Of a stretch of 64,000 nt of DNA, positions 45,913 to 54,842 are shown piece after piece. Position numbers and translations under genes: made by a program. Origin of the DNA: Gemmatimonas groenlandica. Lineage in GTDB: Bacteria > Gemmatimonadota > Gemmatimonadetes > Gemmatimonadales > Gemmatimonadaceae. Where the stretch lies: contig NZ_CP053085.1 in assembly GCF_013004105.1 (NCBI RefSeq), positions 496,001 to 560,000 of the forward strand, given 5' to 3'. A model generated the notes under the pieces. The model was given only the letters and a program-made list of their open reading frames with translations, ran no database searches and was not told the origin of the DNA. The number at the start of each line of letters is the position of its first letter. Position 1 is the first letter of the stretch.

Positions 45913-47490
45913 ATGGGAATCTGGTCCAAGAAGTCGATCACGGCGCTCCGCGCCGAGGCCGCAAGTTCCGAGGGCGGCCTGAAGCGAACGCTCGGCGCGC
46001 TCAACCTGACCATGCTGGGCATCGGCGCCATCATCGGCGCCGGCATCTTCGTGCTCACGGGCACTGCAGCGGCCAACTTCGCCGGACCCGGCGTGTCGCT
46101 GTCCTTCGTGCTGGCTGGTCTCGCGTGTCTGTTCGCGGGCCTCTGCTATGCAGAGTTCGCGTCGATGATTCCGATCGCCGGCTCGGCCTATACGTACAGC
46201 TACGCGACGATGGGTGAAGGCGTGGCGTGGTTTATCGGTTGGAATCTGGTGCTCGAGTATCTGTTCGCCGCAGCGACCGTCGCGGTGGGCTGGTCGGGGT
46301 ACTTCAGCGCGATGCTCGACACGGTGGGTATTCATGTCCCTGCCGCGTTCGCGTCGGCGCCGCTGACGGTAGAGAACGGGCATCAAGTGGTCCGCGCCTT
46401 TACGTGCGTGAACACCAACACCGGCGGTGTGCTCGCCGATGCCGCAACCAAGATTGCCTTCGCCACGCGCGAAGCGTGCACGGCGGCCGGCGGTAATGCG
46501 GTGGATGGCCTGATCAATCTTCCGGCGATCCTGCTCATCCTGGCGTTGACGATGCTGCTGGTGCGTGGTGTTCAGGAATCGGCCACATTCAACAACATCA
46601 TCGTCGCCATCAAGATGGTGATCGTGTTGTTGGTGATCGGGTTCGGCTTCATGTACGTGAACACCGACAACTGGCACCCGTTCATCCCCGAGATGGTCAC
46701 CAACTCCGATGGCAGTACGAAGTACGGCATGTCGGGCGTGCTGCGTGCGGCGCCGGTGGTGTTCTTCTCGTACATCGGCTTCGATGCCGTGTCCACGGCC
46801 GCGCAGGAAGCCAAGAATCCGCAGCGTGACTTGCCGATCGGCATGATTGCCTCGCTGCTGATCTGCACGGTGCTGTACATCCTGATGTCGTTGGTGATGA
46901 CCGGACTCGCGCCCTTCCAGTCGCTTGGCGTGGCTCACCCGGTGTCGGCCGCCCTCGAGGCGGTCCCGCAGCTCAAGTGGCTCGAGAATCTGGTAAACAT
47001 CGGCGCCGTGGCCGGCTTGTCGTCGGTCGTGCTGGTGATGCTCATGGGCCAGCCGCGCATTTTCTACACGATGTCGCGTGACGGTCTGCTGCCGAAGATT
47101 TTCGCGAAGGTGCATCCGAAGTATCAGACGCCAGCGGCTTCTACCTGGATCGTCGGTCTTATCGCGATCGTCATTGCCGGCTTCTTTCCGCTCGGCCTGC
47201 TCGGTGAGCTGGTGTCGGGTGGAACGTTGGCGGCTTTTGCCACCGTCTGCATCGGCGTGCTTGTGCTCCGCAAGCGGTCGCCGGAACTCGAGCGTCCGTT
47301 CCGTACGCCTTGGGTGCCGCTCGTTCCCATCATGGGCGCCGGTGCCACGCTGTACATGATGTACCAGCTGCCCAAGCTCACCTGGACGCTGCTCGGTGTC
47401 TGGACCGCGATCGGTATGACGGTCTACTTCGTGTACGGTATGGGCAATTCGAAGATCGGTAAGCAGGACAAGGCCAGCGGCGCCAAATGA
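45913..47490 (+). CDS. APC-superfamily amino-acid permease (cationic amino-acid transporter-like)
   Basis: 525 residues with about 12-14 membrane segments. It opens GGLKRTLGALNLTMLGIGAI and GAGIFVLTG, the conserved first helix of APC transporters, followed by 'PGVSLSFVLAGLACLFAGLCYAEFAS' (two parts) and later 'VVFFSYIGFDAVSTAAQEAKNPQRDLP', typical of the CAT/YfnA subgroup. An ~60-residue loop with two cysteines (FTCVNTNTGG, REACTAAGG) lies between helices 4 and 5 outside the membrane. The substrate amino acid is unknown. ATG 45913 fits the family start. Its stop overlaps the DHH gene start. Confidence 0.9.
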   Translation: MGIWSKKSITALRAEAASSEGGLKRTLGALNLTMLGIGAIIGAGIFVLTGTAAANFAGPGVSLSFVLAGLACLFAGLCYAEFASMIPIAGSAYTYSYATMGEGVAWFIGWNLVLEYLFAAATVAVGWSGYFSAMLDTVGIHVPAAFASAPLTVENGHQVVRAFTCVNTNTGGVLADAATKIAFATREACTAAGGNAVDGLINLPAILLILALTMLLVRGVQESATFNNIIVAIKMVIVLLVIGFGFMYVNTDNWHPFIPEMVTNSDGSTKYGMSGVLRAAPVVFFSYIGFDAVSTAAQEAKNPQRDLPIGMIASLLICTVLYILMSLVMTGLAPFQSLGVAHPVSAALEAVPQLKWLENLVNIGAVAGLSSVVLVMLMGQPRIFYTMSRDGLLPKIFAKVHPKYQTPAASTWIVGLIAIVIAGFFPLGLLGELVSGGTLAAFATVCIGVLVLRKRSPELERPFRTPWVPLVPIMGAGATLYMMYQLPKLTWTLLGVWTAIGMTVYFVYGMGNSKIGKQDKASGAK

Positions 47491-48521
47491 GTGATGGCGT
47501 GCTGACGGCGTCGACGACACGCCGTGACGCCATCGAGACGTGGTTTGCGACGCTGCGCCCGGGTATGACGGTGGCGCTGTCGACGCACATCAATTCGGAT
47601 GGCGACGGGTGCGGTTCGGAGACGGCGTTGGCACGCCTGCTGGCGCAACGGGGGATACATGCACGTATCGTGAATCCCACGCCGTGGCCGGCGATGTTCA
47701 ATTTTCTCCTCGGCGATGATATCGAGGAGGCGAGCGCGCGCGGGGCCGCCGCGCTTGACGGGATCGATGCGTTGATCGTGCTCGACATCAACGACATTCG
47801 CCGACTCGGGCAGTTGGCCGACACGGTGCGTGCGCTGACGGTGCCGATTTCGGTGGTCGATCACCACGTGGCCGGCGATGAGCCCGTGGGGCACATCGCC
47901 GTGGCCGACACCGCCGCCTGTGCCACGGGCGAGTTGGTGTTCGATATCGCGATGACGCTCGGGCTCGAGGTCACCCCCGCGGTAGCGCAGTCGCTATACG
48001 CGGCGATCCTCACCGACACCGGCAGCTTCCGCTTCAGCAACACCTCGCCGCGCGCGCATTCCATCGCGGCGGCGTTGTTGGCCGCGGGCGTGAACCCGGA
48101 GGAGATGTACCGGCGCATTTACGCGCAGGTGAGCGTGGGACGCCTGCAGTTACTGCGCGAGGCGCTCTCCACCTTGCATGCCGACCCTGAGATAGGCCTG
48201 TCGTACATCTCGGTGGCCGCCGGCGCGATGGAGCGCTTCGACATCACGAGCGAGGAACTCGATGGTATCGTGGAACACCCACGCTCGATTTCCGGCACGC
48301 GCATGGCGATGTTCTTCCGCGATCTTGGCCACGGCAAGGTGAAGGTGTCGTTCCGCAGCACCGGCTCCGTCGACGTGCAGCAGTTCGCGCGTCGCTACGG
48401 CGGCGGAGGCCACGCCAAGGCATCAGGCGCCTTGCTGACGGGGAATCTCGCCGAGGTGCAGGAGCAGGTGGTGGCCGATGCGCGCGCGTATCTGACGGGC
48501 GGGGATTTGGCGGCAGGGTAG
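47487..48521 (+). CDS. DHH/DHHA1 phosphoesterase, NrnA-like
   Basis: 344 residues, cytoplasmic. The DHH domain has STHINSDGDGCGSE (metal Asp/His), 'LIVLDINDIRRLG', ISVVDHHVAGDEP (the DHH motif), 'AILTDTGSFRFSNTSPR'. The C-terminal DHHA1 domain ends with RRYGGGGHAKASGALLTG. This matches NrnA, which degrades short oligoribonucleotides or cyclic-di-nucleotide breakdown products and dephosphorylates pAp. It starts within the permease stop (ATGA), so it is translated with it. Confidence 0.9.
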   Translation: MSDGVLTASTTRRDAIETWFATLRPGMTVALSTHINSDGDGCGSETALARLLAQRGIHARIVNPTPWPAMFNFLLGDDIEEASARGAAALDGIDALIVLDINDIRRLGQLADTVRALTVPISVVDHHVAGDEPVGHIAVADTAACATGELVFDIAMTLGLEVTPAVAQSLYAAILTDTGSFRFSNTSPRAHSIAAALLAAGVNPEEMYRRIYAQVSVGRLQLLREALSTLHADPEIGLSYISVAAGAMERFDITSEELDGIVEHPRSISGTRMAMFFRDLGHGKVKVSFRSTGSVDVQQFARRYGGGGHAKASGALLTGNLAEVQEQVVADARAYLTGGDLAAG

Positions 48522-48550: not shown

Positions 48551-49651
48551 CTATTTCCTCTGCTTCTGTTTGGCGATGTCGCGAGGGGAAAGCGGCGTGG
48601 TGGAGAGCGCTACGACCAGTGAAGTCTCCGTGCCGATAGACGCGGCGAAGAGTCGACCGTCCGGAGCAATGGCGAGTGCGGTGGGAGTGAATGGAAGTCG
48701 ACGGGAATAGAGATATGCGCCGTCGCTGGCGCGGTAATAGTCGAGGAGCTGGTGCGGATACGTCTTGGTGGCTCCCGCCTCGATAATGACGGTGTCGCCG
48801 CGCTGCATCGCACCGCGCGCAATGGGACTCACTTCCGTCGTCATCGTGGTCTGCGTCGTGACGTGCGTTGCCGTGCGCTCGAGTCGACGCTGTTTTGTGA
48901 CCACCACAGCTTCGTCGCCCGCTTCGATGTACGAGAAGCGTTTCGCGGCGCCGCTCGACGAAATGCTGTACCACGAACCGCCAAAGAACGGCGCGACCGC
49001 CATCGACTCTCCTGCGCACCCGTCGGCGATGTACGCGGAGTTGGCGAATGACGGTGCCTTCTGCAGGGCGGTGACGACCGGCAGCGAGGTGCGCGAAAGG
49101 GTCCTGCCGCTACTATCGATCATCGCGATTGCTCGTGTGGCGCCGAGGTACTTCACGCGGATGAGCCCACGCGGTAGGAGACATATCGTCTCCACCACCG
49201 GGCCATCCGGCACGCGAGTCGTCCAGAGAAATCGTCCGGAATCCGAGTAGACGGTGAGCCGACTCGTGGCCGCATCGAGCACACCCACATGCCGTGCGGA
49301 CGCCACAATCTGCATCGGTCGCTTGAACTCTCCCGGACCTTCGCCGGTCGCATTGAGCACGAATCGTTTTGCCCCAGTCGTCAGATCGAACGCGTGGATT
49401 TCTCGCGTGCCTGCGTCGAGCACGACAACCACGTGCTCGGTGACAGCGAGGGAGCGTGGTTCGACCAGAAGATCCGGATCCTTGGTGCCGCCGCGCACCC
49501 ACTCGCGGATATAGAAGGAATCCGCGCGGAATCGACGAATCGTGGGTGATTGCTGCGCATGAACGGCGGTGCTGCTGTCGGGGGCGCTGACAACCAGGGC
49601 CAAGATGATCCCGGCAAACGCGCGATGCGATAGGCGAGGCGTCAGAGGCAT
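48551..49651 (-). CDS. Secreted 6-bladed beta-propeller protein
   Basis: 366 residues with a signal peptide (AFAGIILALVVSAPDSS, cleavage near VHAQQS). The rest has propeller-type repeats: 'EPRSLAVTEHVVVVLDAGTR', GEGPGEFKRPMQIVASAR (a hallmark GxGPGEFxxPxxI of 6-bladed propeller proteins), 'HVGVLDAATSRLTVYSDSGR', 'TALAIAPDGRLFAASIGTET'. Two cysteines lie in TICLLPRG and DGCAGES. It is the last gene of a tight three-gene operon with a six-cysteine peptide and a thioredoxin-like protein. The start has GAGGA at 7 nt and directly follows the previous stop. Confidence 0.75.
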   Translation of the reverse strand: MPLTPRLSHRAFAGIILALVVSAPDSSTAVHAQQSPTIRRFRADSFYIREWVRGGTKDPDLLVEPRSLAVTEHVVVVLDAGTREIHAFDLTTGAKRFVLNATGEGPGEFKRPMQIVASARHVGVLDAATSRLTVYSDSGRFLWTTRVPDGPVVETICLLPRGLIRVKYLGATRAIAMIDSSGRTLSRTSLPVVTALQKAPSFANSAYIADGCAGESMAVAPFFGGSWYSISSSGAAKRFSYIEAGDEAVVVTKQRRLERTATHVTTQTTMTTEVSPIARGAMQRGDTVIIEAGATKTYPHQLLDYYRASDGAYLYSRRLPFTPTALAIAPDGRLFAASIGTETSLVVALSTTPLSPRDIAKQKQRK

Positions 49652-50194
49652 TCAGAGTTCCTCGATCCAGGTGAGTCCTTCGATGATCTTCCGCAGCCCG
49701 GCCACTTCGCGTGATGAACGTGGACTCTGCGTCGTGAAGCGCACGCGCCCTTCCTGGTCGAGGACGAGCAGCGCGGGCGTCGTGGTGTGACCCAACGACG
49801 CGAACTGTTGCACGACGGGAGTCGGTGCAGGGCGTAGCGGGATGGCGGCTGTCCAGGCCGGCAGTTCGGCCCGGATGTTCGTCGAGTCAGAGACCGGTCC
49901 GACATACCAGATTACGGCAAGCTGGATGTGCCGCTTCGTTGATCCGCGGTGAAGCACATGCAGCATGCGCAGATTGCCGGAGCAATCGCTGAGTTGCAGG
50001 AGGACGGCGGCCGGCACGGCGGCTGTCACCCGCCCACTCGGCGGAGCGATCGGCGCCGCCTCGTGAGTAAAGTGACGCATGGCGTCGGGAAGCGTGCGCT
50101 GCGGCATCGCTCGCGCGACGTCGTATCCGACGCCGGCGAGCGAGACCACAAGCCCCGCGACCACCCAGTGCCAAAGGGTCGGGGCGCGATGCAT
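49652..50194 (-). CDS. Exported thioredoxin-fold-like protein with a single Cys
   Basis: 180 residues. The N-terminal hydrophobic segment (WVVAGLVVSLAGVGYDVARA) is a signal peptide or anchor. Then VLLQLSDCSGN resembles the active-site loop of TlpA/redoxin proteins, but with one cysteine (CSGN) instead of CxxC. A later 'TTPALLVLDQEGRVRF' has the cis-Pro region and strand typical of thioredoxin folds. It could bind or reduce a partner cysteine without forming its own disulfide. It overlaps the peptide gene stop (TGATG) and abuts the propeller gene. Confidence 0.65.
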   Translation of the reverse strand: MHRAPTLWHWVVAGLVVSLAGVGYDVARAMPQRTLPDAMRHFTHEAAPIAPPSGRVTAAVPAAVLLQLSDCSGNLRMLHVLHRGSTKRHIQLAVIWYVGPVSDSTNIRAELPAWTAAIPLRPAPTPVVQQFASLGHTTTPALLVLDQEGRVRFTTQSPRSSREVAGLRKIIEGLTWIEEL

Positions 50195-50580
50195 CAGTCT
50201 TCGCAGAGCTCGATGTTCGCCTCGAACCCGTCATCCGACGATCCGCTGGTCGTCGCGGCGCTGCACGTCTTGAACGGGCCAGTCGTCGTCGTACCGGTCG
50301 AGATGGAAGTCCGGTCCTTATAAAGGGTCTTGTAGCCTGCGACGCATTTCGTCTGCGTGAACGTGAACCCTCCGCTCTGCATGAACACGTTGAGGTTGAA
50401 CTGGATGGAGGTCTCGCACGTCGTAATCGGCTGCGTGCCGCACGCCGTGAGCGTGCCCATCGAACACGCCGTCGACGTCACCGTCGACGACTGCGCCATC
50501 GCGCGCGACACATCGACGGTGGCCACCGTGAACAGCAACGCGAACACGCCGAAGGCGGCGCGGGGAATGGTCATCATCAT
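50194..50580 (-). CDS. Secreted six-cysteine small protein
   Basis: 128 residues, not recognised. Signal peptide to about residue 30 (FGVFALLFTVATVDVSRAMA), leaving a mature chain of about 98 residues rich in Thr and Ser. It has exactly six cysteines (STACSMG, TACGTQ, TTCETS, TKCVAG, KTCSAA, ELCED), enough for three disulfides, and a beta-forming middle (IQFNLNVFMQSGGFTFTQTK). Ribosome site GAGG at 6 nt. It is the first gene of the operon with the thioredoxin-like and propeller genes. A structural or signalling peptide is possible. Confidence 0.65.
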   Translation of the reverse strand: MMMTIPRAAFGVFALLFTVATVDVSRAMAQSSTVTSTACSMGTLTACGTQPITTCETSIQFNLNVFMQSGGFTFTQTKCVAGYKTLYKDRTSISTGTTTTGPFKTCSAATTSGSSDDGFEANIELCED

Positions 50581-50823
50581 GACAAACCTCGGGATCTATC
50601 CGTGAAGTGGCGCGCCGCGGAGTGCGTCGCACCGGTCATCGCGGCCCGGATCCGCGCGACGGAGCCACCATAGCACCCCCGCGTCAGCGCGCTGTCACCG
50701 GATTGCTGCCGGCATGGCCATTTCACCGCCGGACGCCGTCGGGAACGTCAGTCCCCCGCTTGGAGCGCTTCGTCGCGATGCCTACTTTTCAGCACGTAGT
50801 CATCCCGATAACCCGACTCTCCA

Positions 50824-51984
50824 ATGCAGCCTCTCATGGAGCGGATCACCGGCGCTCTCGCCGCGGTCCGCAACCCCCGTACCGGCGCCGATGTCATGGC
50901 CGCCGACATGGTGCGGGATATCGCCACCACGGTCGACGGCAAGGTGCGCCTCACGCTCCTGCTGGCCGCCCAGGACGACGCCACCCTCGTGCGCGACGTC
51001 CGCCAGGCCATCGAGGCGCTCGCGGGCGTGTCCGATGTCCGCGTTGATGTGCGCGACCCCGCGCAGACCGAACCCACGCCGGCGCGTCGCGCGCCGACCT
51101 CCGCACCGCCAGCCATGAATCAGCCGCAAGCGCCCGCCACGGGTGGCATGGGACGCGCCCTCCCCGTCATGGATGCCGCCCCCAAGGCGCCGCCCAAGGT
51201 CCCCGAGCCGGTCGCCTATCCGCAGCTCGGTCGCATCATTGCCGTGTCGTCGGGCAAGGGCGGCGTGGGCAAAAGCACCGTGGCCGTGAATCTCGCGGTC
51301 GCGCTCGCCAAGATGGGCAAGCGCGTCGGTATCATGGACGCCGACATTTACGGCCCCAACCTGCCGCTCATGCTCGGTGTCGATGCGGCGCCCGCAGTCG
51401 TGGATGAAAAGATCATCCCGCTCGAGGCCTACGGCATCAAGGTGATGTCCATCGGCTTCCTCATCGAGAAGGAGCAGCCGGCCATCTGGCGCGGCCCGAT
51501 CGTCATGAAGATCCTCACGCAGTTCCTGAAGGACGTCGCGTGGGGACAGCTCGACTACTTCCTGGTCGACATGCCGCCGGGCACCGGCGACGCGCAGCTC
51601 TCGCTCGTGCAGGCAACGCAGGTACACGGCGCGGTGATCGTGACCACGCCGCAGCAGGTGTCGGTCGGTGACGCGCTCCGCGGCGTGAAGATGTTCGAGC
51701 GCACTGCCGTGCCCGTGCTCGGCATCGTGGAGAACATGTCGTACTTCGAGAACCCCGAAACCGGCAAGCCGATCGCCGTCTTCGGCACTGGTGGTGGCGC
51801 GCGGTTGGCTACAGAAACCAACCTGCCGCTCATCGGACAGGTGCCGCTCGATCCGCGCATTCAGGAAGGCGGCGACACCGGCCGTCCCATTGTGGACGCT
51901 GAGCCGACGTCGCGCGCCGCGAAGGAACTCGAAGCGATCGCCCAGCGTGTCGTGGAGCGCCTTGTCAGCATCTACGGGAACTGA
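50824..51984 (+). CDS. Mrp/NBP35-family ATPase (Fe-S carrier-like)
   Basis: 386 residues. Residues about 1-80 form a MIP18/DUF59-like domain, then a Pro/Ala linker, then the P-loop ATPase with deviant Walker A VSSGKGGVGKSTVAVNLA, 'IMDADIYGPNLPLML', 'FLVDMPPGTGDAQLSL' and 'VTTPQQVSVGDALRGVKMF'. Mrp proteins load or carry Fe-S clusters. The usual CxxC after the MSYF motif is missing (MSYFENPETGKPIAVFGTGG), and no other cysteine pair is seen in this region. A cluster-binding role is therefore less certain than for canonical Mrp. The MATE gene start overlaps its end. Confidence 0.9.
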   Translation: MQPLMERITGALAAVRNPRTGADVMAADMVRDIATTVDGKVRLTLLLAAQDDATLVRDVRQAIEALAGVSDVRVDVRDPAQTEPTPARRAPTSAPPAMNQPQAPATGGMGRALPVMDAAPKAPPKVPEPVAYPQLGRIIAVSSGKGGVGKSTVAVNLAVALAKMGKRVGIMDADIYGPNLPLMLGVDAAPAVVDEKIIPLEAYGIKVMSIGFLIEKEQPAIWRGPIVMKILTQFLKDVAWGQLDYFLVDMPPGTGDAQLSLVQATQVHGAVIVTTPQQVSVGDALRGVKMFERTAVPVLGIVENMSYFENPETGKPIAVFGTGGGARLATETNLPLIGQVPLDPRIQEGGDTGRPIVDAEPTSRAAKELEAIAQRVVERLVSIYGN

Positions 51985-54143: not shown

Positions 54144-54410
54144 ATGCGTACGACCATCGATCTCGACGACGCGCTCCTTCAGCGTCTCCGTGACACCGCC
54201 CACCGCGAAGGCGTGCCGTTCAAGGCGCTGCTGCATCGGGTGATTCTTCGCGGCCTCGACGAAGCCCCCTCGGTCGCCCCGACGCACTACGAGCCTCGCT
54301 CGTACAGCATGGGCCCGATACGAGAGGGCTACGATCTCGTGAAAGCCCGGTGGATCGTGGACGATCTCGAAGACGAAGAGATCATTCGGAAAATGAACGA
54401 GGGGCGCTGA
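54144..54410 (+). CDS. vapB: VapB-type antitoxin
   Basis: 88 residues. The N-terminal part MRTTIDLDDALLQRLRDTAH is a ribbon-helix-helix DNA-binding region; the C-terminal part (IREGYDLVKARWIVDDLEDE) is acidic and would wrap the toxin. It pairs with the PIN-domain toxin gene 3 nt downstream. Two dyads in the promoter are its likely binding sites. Confidence 0.82.
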   Translation: MRTTIDLDDALLQRLRDTAHREGVPFKALLHRVILRGLDEAPSVAPTHYEPRSYSMGPIREGYDLVKARWIVDDLEDEEIIRKMNEGR

Positions 54411-54413
54411 GGG

Positions 54414-54842
54414 GTGATTGTCCCGGACGTCAACCTGCTGGTGTACACGCTCAATCGTGACAGCCCGCAGTGCACTCGTGCGCGTGATTGGTGGCGCACG
54501 CTGCTCAACGGCGACGAGCCTGTCGGTCTCACCTGGGTGACCGTGATGGGCGTCGTACGCATCAGCACGAACCCGCGGATTTTTCGCTCGCCGCTCGCGC
54601 TTGTTGACGTCATCGGGAACGTCGATGAATGGTTCTCGCAGCCAGTGGTGAGTACGCTGGAACCTGGCGCGCGCCATTGGGCGATCATGCGCACGCTGCT
54701 GGCCGAAGCCGGCCGTGGCGGCAACCTCACCACCGACGCGCATCTCGCCGCACTCTGCATCGAACGCGGCGCCACGCTGCACAGCGCCGATGGCGACTTC
54801 GCGCGCTTTCGCGGACTGCGCTACGAGAACCCGCTGCGCTGA
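54414..54842 (+). CDS. vapC: VapC-type PIN-domain ribonuclease toxin
   Basis: 142 residues, GTG start. PIN acidic residues: Asp5 (IVPDVNLLVYTLNR), Asp in 'GGNLTTDAHLAALCIERGA', and Asp in 'TLHSADGDFARFRGLRYENP'. The ending LRYENPL is common in this VapC group. It cuts RNA unless held by VapB. The gene ends in overlap-free tail-to-tail position with the membrane protein gene, 15 bp apart. Confidence 0.88.
   Translation: MIVPDVNLLVYTLNRDSPQCTRARDWWRTLLNGDEPVGLTWVTVMGVVRISTNPRIFRSPLALVDVIGNVDEWFSQPVVSTLEPGARHWAIMRTLLAEAGRGGNLTTDAHLAALCIERGATLHSADGDFARFRGLRYENPLR

Follow-up and report, generated by a model that had tools for sequence, protein, structure and literature searches.

A unit of three genes, encoding a small cysteine-rich peptide with an export signal (PEP), a membrane-tethered monothiol thioredoxin-fold protein (TRX) and a six-bladed beta-propeller with a signal sequence (PROP), is kept, lost and rearranged as one in the Gemmatimonadota. 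That this trio is a real conserved unit beyond chance is well supported, because it was intact in all of the first 12 syntenic loci, is wholly absent from three relatives, and occurs in other gene orders elsewhere.

Results

Organisation of the trio

The window analysed here is a 64-kb stretch, bases 496001–560000 of the single-contig genome of Gemmatimonas groenlandica TET16 (5,179,092 bases), and positions are those of the window unless a locus is named. Base 50194 is common to PEP and TRX, and TRX abuts PROP (Table 1). The initial annotation of this DNA had already described this abutting, one-base-overlapping layout, and its coordinates are exact. It also described a peptide with six cysteines, a thioredoxin-like protein with a single cysteine and a six-bladed propeller, all three exported, and the sequences bear this out. 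The six Cys of PEP lie in the mature part, behind an export signal of the AMA-Q type; the one Cys of TRX is C71, with an N-terminal hydrophobic segment ahead of it; and PROP has a signal sequence. PEP, TRX and PROP are real genes, and when compared with their relatives all three are under purifying selection (dN/dS 0.14–0.41).

The genes on both sides, which we take to encode a DHH-type phosphoesterase (47487–48521, plus strand) and an Mrp/ApbC-like protein (50824–51984, plus strand), lie on the strand opposite to the trio, which therefore forms a separate transcription unit. The promoter of the trio should lie in the gap that separates PEP from the divergently oriented Mrp/ApbC-like gene, where no match to the sigma-70 consensus was found.

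Table 1 Features of the trio and its surroundings in the window.
Feature	Position	Strand	Remarks
PEP, six-Cys peptide with export signal, 128 aa	50194–50580	minus	cleavage predicted to follow AMA (residue 29)
TRX, membrane-tethered monothiol thioredoxin-fold protein, 180 aa	49652–50194	minus	C71 in DCSGNL, cis-Pro P140
PROP, six-bladed beta-propeller with signal sequence, 366 aa	48551–49651	minus	Pfam DUF5128 match, E=3.5e-8
PEP 5' block, about 51 nt of leader and most of the signal sequence	50513–50631	minus	
Intergenic region, PEP to the divergent Mrp/ApbC-like gene	50581–50823		from the gene layout

Presence and loss at the home-genus site

Relatives of PEP were found by sequence search in the home genus and in one sister genus. 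The trio is found at the same syntenic position in 19 home-genus and 2 sister-genus genomes, eight further genomes being counted in, and the first 12 of these loci to be inspected have the same two flanking genes. Among the home-site relatives the TRX motif DCxGNL is present in 13 of 13 aligned rows, and each locus has PROP. Three home-genus genomes (G022, G069 and G098) have none of the three genes, and their flanks are closed up over a short intergenic gap. In the tree of the flanking genes, G069 and G098 are nested in a trio-bearing clade, and therefore the whole unit was lost in both. One home-genus genome has a second, different trio with two tandem peptides (L149, also L195; 2459–6023), and from the transposase genes near it we suppose that units of this type may be mobile.

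Two other features of the neighbourhood vary between relatives. A two-gene pair at 54144–54842, encoding a ribbon-helix-helix-like protein of 88 aa and a PIN-like protein of 142 aa and by eye of the VapBC type, is found at the same place in L036 and L041 and is missing in L035 and L042. Between GuaB and the DHH gene lies a gene for an amino-acid permease; its product in L034 and L187 is only about 53% identical to that of the window, compared with 88–95% in most other home-genus genomes, as if the permease had been replaced in the L034/L187 lineage.

The trio across the Gemmatimonadota

A first TRX profile led to distant TRX genes in other families. Once these had been added, the profile was searched against 395 genomes of the phylum, and 20 loci were fetched. 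Each true distant TRX hit lies beside a propeller and a small Cys-rich peptide with an export signal; the link of these peptides to PEP had been missed by sequence search. The initial annotation had proposed looking for the trio in other Gemmatimonadota and expected the peptide to co-occur with the other two genes; about 42 verified loci contain all three genes. They are spread over six families with 15 genera, several unrelated genomic sites being represented, and the peptide has stayed, gone and moved together with its partners.

The presence of the peptide was also scored by a blind rule, which demanded a signal-like start, at least four Cys, small size, the same strand and a distance within 2.2 kb. 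A peptide was found in 11 of the 13 loci outside profile building, as against 204 of 3,626 control stretches (5.6%), the 13 loci amounting to some six independent cases since several belong to the same genus. On inspection by eye one of the two missed loci, L148, does contain a peptide; in the other, L152, TRX and PROP are present and no peptide was found. Within the 64-kb window PEP is the sole open reading frame that passes the rule.

Three gene orders were observed: PEP-TRX-PROP, PEP-PROP-TRX (with an intervening Cys-less TRX copy) and TRX-PROP-PEP, and the gaps between the genes are often -4. The TRX profile also caught ordinary CxxC TlpA proteins (L155, L156, L158 and L159), which have neither peptide nor propeller alongside and were rejected as TRX of the trio; the weak hits L101 and L102 were discarded as CoA-transferase-like proteins, and L100 as an antisense frame. 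When 84,980 species were scanned for the canonical peptide pattern, 13 records were obtained, 12 of them titled Gemmatimonadota and one 'uncultured bacterium', the last being the Gemmatimonadota locus L098. No relatives of the trio were found on viral contigs or on plasmids.

Several loci depart from the simple arrangement. In L103 (5432–5893) and L145 (1221–1661) a second TRX-like gene, whose catalytic Cys is missing, lies between PEP and PROP in addition to a normal TRX, and appears to be either a degenerate or a structural partner. A two-peptide trio is accompanied in L153 (also L192; 3394–4170) by a subtilase (Pfam S8, E 1e-12), possibly involved in peptide processing, and by a further one-Cys TlpA-like gene. 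L154 (1901–2699) encodes three tandem, similar four-Cys peptides with export signals, followed by one TRX and one PROP. A small membrane gene, its family not known, adjoins PROP in some loci (L098, 5919–6407; L146, 1600–2028), and in L157 (3458–4930) and L162 (3185–4621) the propeller itself starts with a membrane segment, perhaps as a fusion of the small membrane gene and PROP.

The cysteine peptide

Residues A29, C39, C47, C55 and C79 of PEP are invariant in alignments of 13 and 23 rows, C106 and C126 are kept in all single-copy members, every one of which has six Cys, and the dN/dS of PEP against the nearer relatives of the window is 0.23–0.41. The distant peptides are tied to PEP by position and Cys pattern more than by sequence similarity. 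They share the start C-x(6-8)-C, the C1–C2 spacing being 6–8 in nearly all of the 48 peptides collected; the canonical form has 4 Cys, 47 of the 48 mature parts contain an even number of Cys, and the L161 peptide has five. Most mature peptides of this set are acidic, with a median charge of about -4. Tandem copies occur in L149, L153, L154, L040 and L043.

Disulphides C39–C47, C55–C79 and C106–C126 (C1–C2, C3–C4 and C5–C6) are predicted from the alignments, because paired cysteines go missing together in natural relatives: the L095 peptide retains C1 and C2 only, C3 and C4 being gone together, and the second peptides of L040 and L043 in the sister genus have lost C5 together with C6. The AlphaFold model of PEP is poor (pLDDT 47) and gives no fold that would back this pairing.

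PEP and the distant peptides matched no Pfam or NCBIfam family above the cut-off, so the peptide has not turned out to be a piece of some known family, an outcome that the initial annotation had named as a refutation. The BB_PF pore-former (E 0.064) and, for the peptide of one relative, Toxin_7 (E 0.074) were rejected as far under their curated cut-offs. The peptide had also been judged distinct from NVEALA, and indeed PF14055 found no match in PEP, in eight distant peptides or in the genome; as a control, the same profile matched Bacteroides ihuae and four others, and one of these five matches exceeded the cut-off.

The 5' block of PEP is 93–100% identical between TET16 and its three nearest relatives, as against 50–78% for the mature peptide. 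In the comparison with G389 the signal is 100% identical and the mature part 50.5%, and the DNA around the PEP start is 97–100% identical. An RNA element was considered for this block and rejected, the folding z being 0.11 against shuffles and covariation unsupportive; Rfam gave nothing over the gathering score, its miRNA matches being sub-threshold. The block is present in a single copy in the TET16 genome, and its conservation is treated here as that of the leader and the signal sequence.

The monothiol thioredoxin and the propeller

A thioredoxin fold had been guessed for TRX from its sequence, and the predicted model (pLDDT 89.2, pTM 0.76) bears this out. Its closest solved folds are of the DsbE, DsbF, ResA and TlpA types (Foldseek against DsbE 3gl3: E 2e-4; Z 9.5 over 123 aligned residues), and the NHLRC2 structure 6gc1 is matched as well. 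In the model the Cys is located at a helix start and the cis-Pro before strand 4, as expected of the fold, and we assign this predicted fold with confidence. Across 39 sequences no column is invariant other than those of C71, the attacking Cys, and P140, the cis-Pro, and in none of these 39 aligned rows is there a second Cys completing a CxxC at the active site. TRX members gave no match to the Pfam thioredoxin families at E < 0.001, and Ni_hydr_CYTB (E 0.021) was set aside as far under its curated cut-off. TRX thus resembles TlpA/ResA/DsbE-type thioredoxins in fold and topology, in its membrane anchor and in the usual placing of the attacking Cys and cis-Pro, but differs from them in having no CxxC and in being always tied to PEP and PROP.

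PROP scores 33.4 bits against Pfam PF17170 (DUF5128), the curated cut-off being 22.9, and 9 of 15 PROP relatives match the same family at E 0.01. A PROP profile matches the NHL propellers of TRIM71 and other proteins. The signal of PROP is an ordinary one in TET16; a lipobox is found in most distant relatives and by eye also in L096, L147 and L043. Since most relatives have this lipobox, PROP is usually a lipoprotein and held in the envelope.

Evolution of the unit

The proteins of the trio change 3–6 times faster than the flanking genes, yet under purifying selection. After correction for the flanks, the distances of PEP and PROP are correlated with a partial r of 0.77–0.79 (0.21–0.30 for the control gene), those of TRX and PROP with 0.79–0.80 and those of PEP and TRX with 0.55–0.59; the joint inheritance of the three genes as a cassette may be enough to account for these correlations. 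Two deeply split trio types, A and B, are present in the home genus. Three changes between them are needed on the flank tree and one on the trio tree, but a single type-A clade was not rejected by the AU test (p 0.145), so that an exchange of trios between species is at most suggested.

Discussion

From these results a working mechanism may be proposed, to which we give rather less than an even chance: TRX is a monothiol thioredoxin dedicated to the peptide, folding or holding it as a disulphide peptide, and PROP binds or displays the product. The initial annotation had likewise suggested that TRX may help to fold or trap the peptide and that PROP may bind it. Together, the three genes would then produce a small disulphide peptide for secretion, fold it and present it, and so act as one functional unit. 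PEP would leave by the general (Sec) route, be cut after AMA and form its disulphides. TRX would be membrane-held with its domain in the periplasm; as the second Cys of CxxC is missing, it could not run a dithiol cycle alone, and it would act on PEP via a mixed disulphide, as a dedicated isomerase or a holding chaperone. PROP would bind PEP and retain or display it at the outer surface of the envelope, perhaps in concert with TRX, much as the Trx domain and the NHL propeller of NHLRC2 together form a single cleft. Because the mature peptide changes fast under a conserved signal sequence, its target is suggested to lie outside the cell, and might be a neighbour, some surface or a partner in signalling. 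An extended version, which we hold only as a doubtful conjecture, is that throughout the Gemmatimonadota TRX keeps a hypervariable peptide bound to itself by a mixed disulphide and passes it on to a propeller at the surface, serving recognition or competition between cells.

A different function, antagonism, is unlikely in our estimate, though worth setting out: PEP would be a bacteriocin-like peptide directed at close relatives, TRX its disulphide maturation factor, and PROP a receptor-blocking immunity protein or a carrier. In the pediocin PA-1 operon the thioredoxin PedC increases the activity of pediocin (PMC4919988), and the canonical trio peptides have four Cys as pediocin does, so that in both cases a small peptide, with two disulphides (predicted for the trio), is encoded with a dedicated thioredoxin-fold protein. 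The fast-evolving mature peptide behind a conserved signal, the tandem peptide copies and the patchy presence of the trio point the same way. However, PedC has a CXXC motif and its operon an ABC transporter and an immunity gene, none of which is found in the trio, whose flanks in TET16 are housekeeping genes; the trio has ordinary export signals instead, and a propeller is added. The lack of a transporter and of a separate immunity gene in the conserved unit argues against antagonism, as do the mostly acidic mature peptides, most killing peptides being cationic, the absence of a lone PROP at the home site in genomes without PEP, and the absence of any match to the anti-phage models of PADLOC for the two trios run.

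Equally improbable to us is an envelope redox pair, in which TRX and PROP would make up an enzyme or sensor like NHLRC2 but split in two, and PEP, instead of being an exported effector, would serve it as a small redox substrate, regulator or electron carrier. Human NHLRC2 arranges a Trx-like domain and a six-bladed NHL propeller around one cleft (PMC6107167), the same pairing of parts as in TRX and PROP, and the structural match to 6gc1, the strong correlation of TRX and PROP distances and the fact that these two are the tightest-overlapping gene pair would all fit. But NHLRC2 is one fused protein of cytosolic type, its motif is CCINC and no small peptide goes with it, whereas the trio consists of separate proteins with export signals and a monothiol, whose lone Cys cannot cycle by itself. 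A conserved cofactor-like carrier would moreover be expected to change more slowly than the peptide does, and the Cys-less TRX copies speak against a redox role as well. The trio is a member of neither the pediocin/PedC nor the NHLRC2 systems.

Bacteroidota NVEALA loci, to which the initial annotation likened the trio, have a small exported peptide near a DUF5128 propeller. That it is a Gemmatimonadota branch of such loci we regard as quite improbable. The general make-up is alike, a small peptide with an export signal being encoded beside a six-bladed propeller, and PROP belongs by its DUF5128 match to a propeller family of Bacteroidota type. Against this, none of the trio peptides searched matches the NVEALA profile, the peptides have a C-x7-C pattern, the monothiol TRX is a fixed third member, and the canonical pattern is confined to Gemmatimonadota among the species scanned. 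Methylamine dehydrogenase has the same three kinds of part, MauA being a small Cys-rich subunit, MauD a thioredoxin and MauB a propeller. The analogy was rejected: the unit contains no MauE-like gene, PEP alignments have no invariant Trp, the mature peptide of TET16 has no Trp at all, and without a conserved Trp a tryptophan-derived cofactor is not to be expected. Finally, that unrelated neighbours are together by chance or operon inheritance is extremely improbable, as home-genus synteny alone could account for the linkage there but the linkage holds in six families, at different sites and in different gene orders, with clean whole-unit absences.

The literature searched contained no paper mentioning NVEALA and none joining Gemmatimonadota with secreted peptides, and the trio unit was not found in it. 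Two of the three families, the peptide and the monothiol thioredoxin, are unnamed in the libraries searched. If the proposed mechanism, with TRX folding or holding the peptide and PROP displaying it, is true, its working principle would be a variant of the small disulphide peptide with its own thiol partner. In the trio, nature has linked a single-cysteine thioredoxin to one family of peptides with predicted disulphides, and the Trx-propeller partnership resembles that in NHLRC2. Gemmatimonadota are widespread in soil and water, and to our knowledge almost nothing is known of their interactions; since the unit is present in a cultured, sequenced type strain, a secreted-peptide pathway of this phylum would be directly testable.
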